Origin: an uncultured Clostridia bacterium
GTDB lineage: Bacteria; Bacillota; Clostridia; HGM11327
Direction of reading: 5' to 3'
DNA: 39,537 nucleotides
Assembly: GCA_945918795.1 (NCBI GenBank)
Contig: CAMEIT010000017.1
Coordinates: 1 to 39,537, forward strand
Each line of letters begins with the position of its first letter. The stretch's first letter is position 1. The notes under the pieces were generated by a model, which had not been told where the DNA came from, did no database searches, and saw only the letters and a program-made list of their open reading frames with translations. This document shows, piece after piece, positions 11,379 to 39,523 of the stretch. Made by a program: the position numbers and the translations under genes.

Positions 11379-11640
11379 AATGCCCTCTGCAAAAATTATT
11401 TTTGCAGAGGGCGATAATAATTTACCGTGTTACCACCTCTATTGCAGTTTGAAAAAAACTGCCTCTCAAGTACAACAAATATGCGTATACTTTACCGCTG
11501 TAACGGGCGCCCCGGCATAGCCTACTCAAAATTCGGTATGCGACTCCCGGAATGTATTCATTTTCCTCTGTATGCCGTCTTGCACCTACCGACAGCTCTC
11601 TGTAATACATAAAGAAAAACTACTTTTTTCCGATCAACGT
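11379..11640 (-). promoter_or_regulatory. T-box leader with a tyrosine (UAC) specifier, upstream of the CoA ligase-iorAB operon
   Basis: The T-box sequence GAGGTGGTAACACGG lies at 11440-11426, followed by a terminator hairpin GCCCTCTGCAAA/TTTGCAGAGGGC near 11412-11380. Stem I folds well: base CGGAA (11632-11628)/TTCCG (11552-11548); specifier loop TGAATACA (11560-11553); helix TTTTTC/GGAAAA; helix TGTAT/ATACA; AG bulge TACAGAGA; apical GCTGTC/GACGGC closing GGTAGGTGCAA. The specifier loop reads GAA-UAC-A, a Tyr codon at 11556-11554. The UGGU of the T-box can pair with an ACCA tRNA end. The conserved GAGTAG...CCGTTACAG part lies between. Uncharged tRNA-Tyr would prevent termination and switch the operon on. 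Confidence 0.88.
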
Positions 11641-11653
11641 ATTTACGATAATC

Positions 11654-17399: not shown

Positions 17400-17599
17400 T
17401 CTGAAAAACAGCCGCTCAAACGGCCATCAAATAAGTAAGGATAGCTCTCCGCAAATTGCGACAGCAAAATACATCTTATTATATTTTGCCAGATCAACCC
17501 TCTGCATGGTTGTCTTCGGCATCCTGCACCTTTCAAAGCCGCAACATCCCGCAACGGATTTTTGCACGGCAAATACTATTTACAAAATGCGCCTCTATC
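17400..17599 (-). promoter_or_regulatory. Lysine riboswitch (L box) with expression platform
   Basis: The minus-strand RNA begins GATAGAGGCGC (17599-17589) and closes with GGAGAGCTATC (17450-17440), giving the P1 pairing GATAG/CTATC. Between them are the hallmark elements GAAAGG and GCCGAAG and a CTGTC preceding a small GCAA/TTGC hairpin, as in the L-box consensus. Directly downstream is a short terminator (GGCCG/CGGCT, near 17425-17407) followed by TTTTT. High lysine should favour termination before dapA. Identification rests on conserved motifs and on the lysine genes downstream. Confidence 0.9.
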
Positions 17600-17609
17600 A
17601 AGTGAGCAC

Positions 17610-25046: not shown

Positions 25047-25289
25047 TAAAAAAACGCCTTTGCCGAATGCACACTGCATACTCTGCAAAGGACGAATCAA
25101 ATCCGCGGTACCACCTTTATTAAAGGCAAAAGCCTTTCACTCACTTGCATTATAACGGCTGCCGCCGGCATTGAATACTACATTTTTCCTCAACACTGCT
25201 CCAAAGCGGGTTCTTGTGCCTTACCGACTCTCAGCATTTGTCGGCTCTCTGTTTTTTGGGCGCAATTATTCTTTCTCATAGCATATATT
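25047..25289 (-). promoter_or_regulatory. T-box leader of proS with a proline (CCC) specifier
   Basis: T-box sequence AAGGTGGTACCGCGG (25117-25103) and an intrinsic terminator CCTTTGC (25063-25057 arm) / GCAAAGG (25091-25085) followed by seven to eight T residues. The upstream part has AGAGAGCCGAC...GTCGG for the AG bulge and stem I, and a specifier region reading GAA-CCC-G, placing CCC (Pro) at 25210-25208. This matches the downstream proS gene and supports the GAA-NNN reading used for the Tyr T-box. Confidence 0.93.
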
Positions 25290-37148: not shown

Positions 37149-38219
37149 ATGAAGCGTTCCAAAAAAGAAAAACGAAACTACGGATCAAAAATTAAAACGG
37201 CAGTTGCACTCGCTTTATCGACTGCTTTTTTACTCCCGGGAAGAGCTTCCGCGGATGCCGATATACTCAGAGTCGGCGACAAGGGTGAAAAGGTGGAAGA
37301 GCTCCAGCGCACTCTGCGCGTGCTTGAGCTTTACGAATATCCCGAGTTGGAAGGGTATTTCGGCACAGACACAAGAAGCGCCCTCATGAATTTCCAAAAG
37401 GAACACGGTCTTGAGGTAAACGGAGTGGCAGATCAGGAAACATTCAGAGCAATGGACAAGGCTCTTGATGAATTTTATCCTGAAATCAATTACATACGCA
37501 CTATGCGCCTTAAAACTGTCGGCGATGATGTCAAGGCTCTCCAACAGGTTCTCAAAACTATGGGATACTATGGCACACGCCCCGACGGTATATATAATGC
37601 AAATACAGCGTCCGCAGTCAGAACATTCCAGTTCGATTACGGTATGGCTGTTGACGGTATCGTCAATGAAAGACTTGTTAAAAAGATAAACAGCGTTGCC
37701 GCATCATTGAGACCGCTCAGAGAACCTACAAAAGAACAGCTCGCAGACTCTTTGCCCGAAAACAATGCCAATGCCGAAAAAGCTTCGGACAGGCTCTACC
37801 GTACCGACGCCGTAAAAATGCAGTGGAGCGCTGTTGATAAAGCATGGCCGCTCGGTAAAGTAATGAAGGTTACTGACGTCGAAACAGGCATATCCCTTAA
37901 TCTTAAACGTACAGGCGGTATTAATCACGCTGATGTTGAACCGTGTACAGAAGAAGATACCGATAGCCTTAAAGAGATTTTTTCCGGTACGTGGTCGTGG
38001 CAAAGAAGACCTGTTATCGTTGAAATTTCTTATATAACTTCCGCAGCGTCTATTTGCGGAATGCCTCATGGCGAAAATAATATTCTGGGTAATGGATTGA
38101 ATGGACATTTCTGTATGCACTTCTTCGAAAGTACAGATGATGATGGCTTCGATTTGACCGATAAGGCTCATCAGAAAGCCGTTGATATCGCCGCTGAATA
38201 CAGCTTCAATAAAGAATGA
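37149..38219 (+). CDS. Secreted protein with two peptidoglycan-binding (PG_binding_1) domains
   Basis: 356 residues. An N-terminal signal peptide (basic MKRSKKEKRNYGSKIK, hydrophobic ALALSTAFLLPG, cleavage near ASADA) is followed by two PG_binding_1 repeats (about 38-103: LRVGDKGEKVEELQRTL...GYFGTDTRSALMNFQ; about 118-180: VGDDVKALQQVLKTMGYY...GIYNANTASAVRTFQ). The C-terminal domain (about 225-350) has GMPHGENNILGNGLNGHFCMHF and KAHQKAVDIA, a conserved clostridial module of unknown activity whose His/Gly pattern suggests a hydrolase-like or binding fold. Probably cell wall associated. The ribosome site is weak; an in-frame stop at 37143 rules out a longer form. Confidence 0.9.
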   Translation: MKRSKKEKRNYGSKIKTAVALALSTAFLLPGRASADADILRVGDKGEKVEELQRTLRVLELYEYPELEGYFGTDTRSALMNFQKEHGLEVNGVADQETFRAMDKALDEFYPEINYIRTMRLKTVGDDVKALQQVLKTMGYYGTRPDGIYNANTASAVRTFQFDYGMAVDGIVNERLVKKINSVAASLRPLREPTKEQLADSLPENNANAEKASDRLYRTDAVKMQWSAVDKAWPLGKVMKVTDVETGISLNLKRTGGINHADVEPCTEEDTDSLKEIFSGTWSWQRRPVIVEISYITSAASICGMPHGENNILGNGLNGHFCMHFFESTDDDGFDLTDKAHQKAVDIAAEYSFNKE

Positions 38220-38226
38220 TGCTATT

Positions 38227-38553
38227 CGGGGCGGCAGCCCCGTTCCCCACCAAGACACTTTCCCGGGGCTGCCGCCCCGCACCCTGCCAAGCCTTTGAAA
38301 AGGCTTGACCGAAACTTTAAAATACTTTGTAGCTGTCCTCAAGCGATGCCTGTGGTAGTCATCGCTCGAGGACATTTAATTTTCTTTTCTCTTTAAGTAT
38401 AATGTACCGTATATTAAAATTCCGCCGTAAAAACCTTAAATAAAGTCGCAAAAGTTAATGCGCATCTTTTCGCCATACTCTCGGCGGAAAGATGCGCGAG
38501 CTGCAAAGCAGTTTAAAGTTTTCGGGTCCGGGGACTTTTTTCAAAAGTCCCCG
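38227..38553. repeat. Structured intergenic repeat, copy A
   Basis: Order: two 37-nt units each led by a 16-nt GC palindrome (38227-38242, 38264-38279); hairpin CAAGCCTTT/AAAGGCTTG (38288-38307); left terminal segment CCGAAACTTTAAA (38309-38321); hairpin 1 TGTCCTCAAGCGATG/CATCGCTCGAGGACA (38334-38374, one mismatch); a T-rich linker; hairpin 2, a 15-bp stem 38460-38474/38483-38497 with loop ATACTCTC; hairpin 3 CTGC-AAA-GCAG (38501-38511); right terminal segment TTTAAAGTTTTCGG (38512-38525), nearly complementary to the left one; hairpin 4, 11 bp, 38529-38539/38543-38553. The core between the terminal segments is 217 bp. A matching copy lies at 39156-39523 in the same orientation. Confidence 0.92.
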
Positions 38554-38581
38554 AAATTTTCAAAAGCGTCCAATAAAATAT

Positions 38582-38610
38582 TTGGAAAAATGCGCAAAAT
38601 GTGGTATAAT
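38582..38610 (+). promoter_or_regulatory. Promoter of the small membrane protein gene between the repeats
   Basis: TTGGAA (38582-38587), 17-bp spacer, TATAAT (38605-38610), just outside repeat copy A and 22 bases before the start codon. Confidence 0.75.
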
Positions 38611-38631
38611 AACAAAAAGGCGGTGAAAAAA

Positions 38632-39141
38632 ATGCAAAACACCAATTCAAAAAAGCCCAAGAGCATAAGTAAATTATTATATCTGTTTGCCATTTTGCTT
38701 TGGGTTATCAATCTCACCTATTCTGTAATGCGATTATTTTTTGAATTATCGCTGGCATGGAATTTACTGTTTTTTATTGCAGTGATAATTGTAGGTATTT
38801 TATCCAACGCTTTCAACGACGAAAACGCTTTCCCGGATATTACATACAGCAAAAAATTCTTAGACTACTGCTTAACCGTTTCACTTATCATTTCTGTTAT
38901 ATGCGCCGTTGCCAGTGGTCTTTGCCTTTTGATTGCAGGCGGAGGCCCCAAAATAGTAGACGATGCGTATTATATATATAACAACGGTCAAATGGTCCGC
39001 CCAATCTCCGAACAACAGTTTTTCTTCTTCTCCGTATGTGAATCATTGGTATTTTCGTGCGTAGTCTTGATTTTTTCCTCCGCTATGGCAAAAAGAGTGC
39101 ATACAATGTATTCTTTGCAAAAATTGAGCATGAAAGCATAA
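38632..39141 (+). CDS. Small membrane protein, function unknown, flanked by the structured repeats
   Basis: 169 residues with four membrane helices (about 14-33, 39-57, 76-100 and 134-155). The N-terminus is basic (MQNTNSKKPKSISK). I chose ATG 38632 because AAGGCGGTG precedes it and the promoter at 38582-38610 would lie inside any longer form; the frame open to 38458 reads through repeat copy A. I do not recognise a family. The gene is bracketed by two same-orientation copies of the repeat, so recombination between them would delete it. Confidence 0.78.
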   Translation: MQNTNSKKPKSISKLLYLFAILLWVINLTYSVMRLFFELSLAWNLLFFIAVIIVGILSNAFNDENAFPDITYSKKFLDYCLTVSLIISVICAVASGLCLLIAGGGPKIVDDAYYIYNNGQMVRPISEQQFFFFSVCESLVFSCVVLIFSSAMAKRVHTMYSLQKLSMKA

Positions 39142-39155
39142 AACAAGTCTTTTCC

Positions 39156-39523
39156 CGGGGCTGCCGCCCCGTTCCCCGCCAAGCCTTTTTTCCGGGGCTG
39201 CCGCCCCGCTCCCCGCCAAGACACTTTCCCGGGGCTGCCGCCCCGCACCCTGCCAAGCCTTTGAAAAGGCTTGACCTAAACTTTAAAATACTTTGTATCT
39301 GTCCTCAAGCGATGCCTGTGGTAGTCATCGCTCGAGGACATTTAATTTTCTTTTCTCTTTAAGTTAAATGTACCGTATACTAAAATCTTGCCGTAAAATA
39401 CCTTAAATAAAGTCGCAAAAAGCAATGCTCATCTGCCCGTCATACTCTCGACGGGCAGATGAGTAAACCGCAAAGCGTTTTAAAGTTTTCGGGTTTGCGT
39501 AATAATCTCGAAGAGATTATTAC
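39156..39523. repeat. Structured intergenic repeat, copy B
   Basis: Same layout as copy A: three GC-palindrome units at exact 37-nt spacing (39156, 39193, 39230); hairpin CAAGCCTTT/AAAGGCTTG; left terminal segment CCTAAACTTTAAA (39275-39287); hairpin 1 identical to copy A (39300-39340); linker; hairpin 2, a 14-bp stem 39428-39441/39450-39463 with the same loop ATACTCTC but a different stem sequence; hairpin 3 CGC-AAA-GCG (39469-39477); right segment TTTAAAGTTTTCGG (39479-39492); hairpin 4, 11 bp, GTAATAATCTC/GAGATTATTAC (39499-39523), unrelated in sequence to that of copy A. The core is 218 bp. The window ends 14 bases later. Confidence 0.92.

Follow-up and report, generated by a model that had tools for sequence, protein, structure and literature searches.

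A modular interspersed repeat at gene ends of an uncultured Clostridia bacterium as a candidate two-way transcription terminator

The genome of an uncultured Clostridia bacterium carries approximately 75 copies of a modular interspersed repeat resembling MITEs and BOX elements, which, judged from its anatomy and its position beside gene ends, probably acts as a two-way transcription terminator. Two copies are found in the window, i.e. the whole analysed stretch of 39,537 nucleotides (contig C17 of a source genome with 2,395,516 bases on 122 contigs). If this reading is true, copies of a single repeat have taken the place of the native terminators at dozens of gene ends of this bacterium, and the 25 versions of one of its stems represent a natural experiment on stem pairing and on selection versus template switching, a question for which individual RNA genes are the usual object of study. 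When a multicopy repeat covaries, this alone does not prove a functional RNA.

The first-pass annotation had described two copies of a structured element of about 218 bp, and both are indeed present with approximately 220 bp each (38309-38528 and 39275-39494), sharing 88% identity over 219 nt. The shared part is wider than annotated, it starts at the upstream GC-rich hairpins (38227 and 39193), and one extra hairpin follows 3' of each copy, ending at 38553 and 39523, respectively (Table 1). The segments bounding the core, which had been claimed to be complementary, match over 23 nt with 87% complementarity in copy 1. Compared with shuffled sequence, the two copies fold with z values of -9.2 and -9.1. 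In hairpin 2 the four announced compensatory double changes were found again at pairs 3, 9, 10 and 14, which differ on both sides and are still paired, together with the T-G to C-G change at pair 11 and an unchanged loop, ATACTCTC; a sixth difference, G-C to G.T at the foot, had been missed. The double change reported for hairpin 3 is also present, the two versions being TGCAAAGCA and CGCAAAGCG. Elsewhere in the window, Rfam matches indicate two T-box leaders and one lysine riboswitch (11404-11646, 25085-25288, 17434-17605, minus strand).

Table 1 Positions of the element's parts and of neighbouring genes in the window
Feature	Position	Strand	Remarks
Gene upstream of copy 1, ends at its left edge	37149..38219	+	356 aa, repeated peptidoglycan-binding-like segments
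GC-rich outer hairpin CGGGGCGGCAGCCCCG, copy 1	38227..38242	+	7 nt past the upstream gene's stop codon
Outer hairpin CGGGGCTGCCGCCCCG, copy 1	38264..38279	+	elsewhere GTGAGGC..GCCTCAC or CGGGGCGTTGCCCCG
Outer hairpin CAAGCCTTTGAAAAGGCTTG, copy 1	38288..38307	+	left outer hairpin, 74 exact occurrences in the source genome
Left inverted end CCGAAACTTTAAAATACTTTGTAGC, copy 1	38309..38333	+	
Hairpin 1 (left subterminal), copy 1	38335..38373	+	other copies: wholly different stem GGCAATCAGCCTCG..CGAGTCAGATTGCC
T-rich tract past hairpin 1, copy 1	38374..38395	+	terminator-like for the upstream gene
Hairpin 2 (right subterminal), copy 1	38460..38497	+	15-bp covarying stem; GCGCATCTTTTCGCC-ATACTCTC-GGCGGAAAGATGCGC
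Mini-hairpin 3 CTGCAAAGCAG, copy 1	38501..38511	+	one covarying pair: UA 27 / CG 21 in 53 distinct copies
Right inverted end GCAAAGCAGTTTAAAGTTTTCGGG, copy 1	38503..38526	+	
Right outer hairpin CGGGGACTTTTTTCAAAAGTCCCCG, copy 1	38529..38553	+	other copies: GGACGCTTTT..AAAAGCGTCC and others
Gene between the copies	38632..39141	+	169 aa, probable membrane protein; promoter-like site 38582-38610
Three tandem GC-rich outer hairpins, copy 2	39156..39245 (starts 39156, 39193, 39230)	+	tandem 37-nt units
Outer hairpin CAAGCCTTTGAAAAGGCTTG, copy 2	39254..39273	+	
Left inverted end, copy 2	39275..39299	+	
Hairpin 1 (T-rich tract follows), copy 2	39301..39339	+	
Hairpin 2, copy 2	39427..39464	+	terminator-like on the minus strand; GCTCATCTGCCCGTC-ATACTCTC-GACGGGCAGATGAGT
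Right inverted end, copy 2	39470..39492	+	
Right outer hairpin GTAATAATCTCGAAGAGATTATTAC, copy 2	39499..39523	+	

Searches of the source genome revealed a large family. BLAST with the window element gave at least 63 matches (among the best 40 of 107 candidates) and with its 3' half at least 41 (among the best 40 of 93 candidates), while a covariance model of the 3' module found 83 matches, 75 of them strong (E about 1e-12 or better). Many copies are situated at contig ends, where the assembly breaks, hence the true copy number may be higher. The element was not found in two congeners or in a third genome of their family, assemblies that are only 78-84% complete; with 78-79% completeness in the congeners, absence there is no proof. 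Rfam 15 gave nothing on the element above the gathering score in the window, 18 insert-bearing loci and 16 loci of the genome G159 from the same class; the best sub-threshold match, of one hairpin to RNA-OUT (E 0.013), was taken as chance. The exact linker pattern had no match in a genomic-contig collection, which possibly does not include the source genome, and the hairpin pattern had none among viral contigs. When the covariance model was applied to 291 genomes of the class, it yielded a single weak match elsewhere, in G042 with 34 bits, and this proved to be a bidirectional terminator of the ordinary kind separating two convergent genes. The source genome (C19:18558-18627) also contains what looks like an ordinary bidirectional terminator, CCTCATC..GATGAGG, with a resemblance to hairpin 2 (34.8 bits); it is possibly a solo form, the ancestral form, or a chance likeness. 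Our literature search turned up no description of this repeat family. The earlier suggestion of an undescribed family with a covarying hairpin is supported by the copy number, the Rfam result and the covariation reported below.

Read inward from either gene, the element consists of one or more outer hairpins, a linker, an inverted end, a subterminal hairpin and a T-rich linker. The inverted end reads (A)CCGAAA(A)CTTTAAA..CTTTG, the left end, once reverse-complemented, is similar to the right one, and the same ends were found in about 30 copies. The length between the ends varies from 217 to 902 bp, without a convincing ORF inside: insert-free copies have 217-220 bp, and in the others an insert between the subterminal hairpins adds up to about 680 bp. 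Three inserts (C46:3210-3925, C59:7172-7816 and C6:126-658) carry sequences like AAGGCTCCCTTGTGTAAAGGGAGCTGTCATCGAAGATGACTGAGGGATTG; exact matches to the core of this sequence are present in at least 119 stretches from many gut Clostridia/Oscillospiraceae MAGs, and it represents a separate widespread repeat family. The consensus fold of 13 copies shows closing helices with hairpins on both sides, i.e. nested junctions, in which 23 of 65 pairs are compensated at least once; the closing helices between the inverted ends are nearly invariant and therefore have little evidential weight. The flanks beside the outer hairpins contain stop codons and T/A runs, a clean target duplication was not seen by eye, and the exact outer boundary is blurred. 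We also considered TGAT...ATCA at the edges as element ends, but these are mostly the stop codons of flanking genes.

The covariation extends well beyond the two window copies. Among 53 distinct copies, double changes occur in 7 of the 15 pairs of hairpin 2, and 95.5% of the cells are paired. The covariation of the whole structure in the same set amounts to 0.219, compared with 0.117 +/- 0.008 after shuffling (0 of 500 shuffles reached it), which ignores relatedness, and 0.03-0.08 in slid controls, which keep it. Hairpin 2 exists in 25 stem versions among 75 copies; its pair 3 appears as T-A, G-C or A-T and its pair 2 as C-G, T-A or A-T, in both cases without one-sided intermediates. Hairpin 1 has two unrelated stems within the same loop frame and linkers. 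Two copies deserve attention: C93 looks like a chimera with arms from different stem versions and poorer pairing, and in C5:61096-61177 the tip of hairpin 2 is inverted, with GTCGAGAGTATGAC in place of GTCATACTCTCGAC. Judged from these two copies, the hairpins appear to be subject to recombination and strand switching. As a means of distinguishing a constraint on RNA from one on DNA, an asymmetry between G.T and A.C mismatches (17 vs 4 cells among the distinct hairpin 2 versions) is suggestive for the plus strand, but was set aside, since it reflects few independent events and partly chimeric copies.

The position of the elements relative to genes is highly biased. The neighbouring gene points toward the element in 60/70 cases at the right end and in 25/28 cases at the left end. 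Where both neighbours are known, 18 pairs are convergent, 7 tandem and none divergent, compared with 35/251/36 in the background, so that convergent pairs make up 18/25 at the element vs 35/322 in the background (Fisher p 3e-11, with genes called as longest ORF only and the flanking and background sets drawn differently; because contigs break at elements, the contig interiors sampled as background hold few of them). Typically, 30-75 nt separate the right inverted end from the stop codon, and the outer hairpin lies within this interval. In the window, both copies are located 3' of plus-strand genes, copy 1 between tandem genes of which the second has its own promoter-like site.

Terminators were sought with a home-made heuristic (stem of at least 6 plus T-rich tail). 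The left module gives a terminator-like signal in the sense of the near gene in 48/49 copies, against 1/49 in the opposite sense, the right module in 54/66 against 21/66, with about 10% in shuffled sequence. What is found is thus the GC-rich hairpin plus T-rich tract of an intrinsic terminator in gene sense, although the T-rich tracts contain interruptions and the right-hand tract is the weaker. Other terminators between stop codon and inverted end are scarce (3/31 and 1/53) compared with ordinary convergent gaps (18/29 and 16/29). The orthologs of the gene at 37149-38219 in the congeners G001 and G002 have a plain terminator downstream, as have the congener orthologs of an EF-G-like gene beside copy C58; a flotillin-like neighbour of copy C4:9440 had no relative in the congeners. 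Because of the plain congener terminators at these two loci and the few other terminators beside it, the element appears to replace the native terminator. Position, direction and terminator scarcity are direct observations, from which we infer termination itself.

We propose the following scenario. Just inside each inverted end lies a strong hairpin with a T-rich tract behind it, as read in the direction of the nearer gene, and converging transcripts entering the element would each stop at their own hairpin-plus-U-tract. The letters of the stem would matter little provided that pairing holds, such that stem sequences could drift without loss of pairing. The likeness of loops, linkers and inverted ends may be due to a young age of the copies or to recognition by a mobilising protein. 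Another repeat family is the source of at least some inserts between the two hairpins, and the dispersal of the element together with its absence in congeners suggests spread by transposition.

Alternatively, the element could be a neutral or parasitic MITE-like repeat, its location at gene ends reflecting tolerated insertions, its hairpins serving transposition or nothing, and its terminator look being a by-product. The MITE-like character had already been proposed in the first-pass annotation, and part of it stands: we found terminal inverted repeats on a short, dispersed multicopy sequence with no transposase gene inside and two orthologous congener sites without it. The convergent bias of BOX, RUP and SPRITE has also been read as a parasite pattern, in which harmful insertions are removed by selection (PMC3049150), and the presumed relatives in G159 (see below) sit in tandem gaps too. 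On the other hand, neither a target duplication nor a matching transposase was seen, where the transposase search was limited to Y1 (PF01797) and gave one short damaged match with an internal stop in the source genome. Moreover, tolerance alone explains neither the direction of the T-rich tracts (48/49 vs 1/49) nor the near absence of other terminators beside the element, and we regard this explanation as rather unlikely. Far less probable is a repeat-encoded functional small RNA or trans-acting structured RNA; the strong fold (z about -9), the covariation and the multi-branch structure would fit such a role, but it has no Rfam relative, the nearly symmetric element is structured on both strands, it sits at gene ends, and it contains variable inserts of up to about 680 bp. 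Least credible of all are REP/REPIN palindromes mobilised by a RAYT (Y1) transposase or integron attC sites, which share the palindromic, extragenic, gene-end character and would match the gene-element-gene-element order in the window. However, the hairpin foot is not a fixed GTAG/GGAG (GTAG, GTAT, GTAC and GTGG occur) and the damaged Y1 match remains the only one; an attC array was dropped because the copies are spread among ordinary genes on dozens of contigs instead of forming a single cassette array.

A different question is how the pairing is kept. The first-pass annotation stated that maintained pairing implies selection, which is too strong, because template switching between palindrome arms in RNA stems also yields double changes in one step (PMC8794818), and loop inversion, as in the tip of copy C5:61096-61177, is a footprint of this process (PMC8604942). 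Hence, the pairing may originate from selection on the hairpin, from template-switch copying between the arms, or from both. That replication template switching copies one arm onto the other, which is compatible with the terminator reading, is a serious possibility, even if we do not presume it. It would explain why double changes of the transversion type (T-A to G-C, C-G to A-T, T-A to A-T) show up among the 25 versions at pairs 2, 3 and 8 with one-sided intermediates lacking there. The share of G.T pairs also seems lower than that of ordinary terminators (4-5% vs 8%, only indicative, as the finder accepts G.T and not A.C). Yet selection could equally remove intermediates, only one inversion was found in 75 copies, and a G.G mismatch kept in 28 copies, along with other persisting upper-stem mismatches, shows that homogenisation is incomplete.

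Similar elements exist in G159, which belongs to another family of the same class. There, the left outer hairpin and the linker CAAGCCTTTGAAAAGGCTTGACC(G/T)AAACTTT recur in elements of about 140-220 nt, and the 13 elements we examined (loci within L276-L295) mostly form five hairpins in nested junctions. They share linkers and have similar loops, but many stems differ, mostly with perfect pairing; these pairs were read from a hairpin table, because a DNA alignment puts the variable stems out of register and was left out of the pair counts. Many adjoin stop codons or occupy gaps between tandem genes, hence convergence is no general rule of this architecture. The common architecture and one shared module suggest a link to the window family, with common descent unproven. 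Another hairpin array is present in the congener G001 (L141:2710-2850), where linkers near ACTTCAC are kept and the palindromes between them differ (TTTACCGTAGGTAAA, TATCCAAAGGATA). We can speculate about a Clostridia class of gene-end nested-junction elements with the window family and that of G159 as two branches, in which shape, loops and linkers would be inherited and the stems of most copies rewritten by arm-to-arm template switching under transcript-end selection; this idea is tentative and, on the whole, doubtful.

Among known repeats, BOX of S. pneumoniae comes close, with end modules plus a variable number of inner modules and about a hundred copies per 2-Mb genome (PMC3049150). Both families are modular, have similar copy numbers and terminal inverted repeats that pair in the fold, and are enriched between convergent genes (PMC3049150), although the convergent share of BOX is 16/86 (two tabulated classes, PMC3049150) against 18/25 here. 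The window family differs from BOX in its terminator-like hairpins in the sense of the near gene and in its stems, which vary with pairing kept. SPRITE is a terminator-like repeat near 3' ends that is strongly enriched between convergent genes, and its co-option as terminator has been suggested (PMC3049150). It is likewise interspersed, but represents a single 18-bp stem with a U-rich tail, whereas the window family combines two opposed terminator-like hairpins with outer hairpins, inverted ends and inserts; the comparison with BOX and SPRITE is one of described features. REP/BIME palindromes are extragenic and often found between convergent genes (PMC1525189); compared with these and with REPINs, the window family is larger and modular, without a fixed foot tetranucleotide and without an intact RAYT found. 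Finally, it resembles ordinary bidirectional intrinsic terminators in position, hairpin, T-rich tract and a sequence that is free as long as the stem pairs, but unlike those it repeats the same sequence of about 220 bp or longer at dozens of loci, with ends and linkers conserved.
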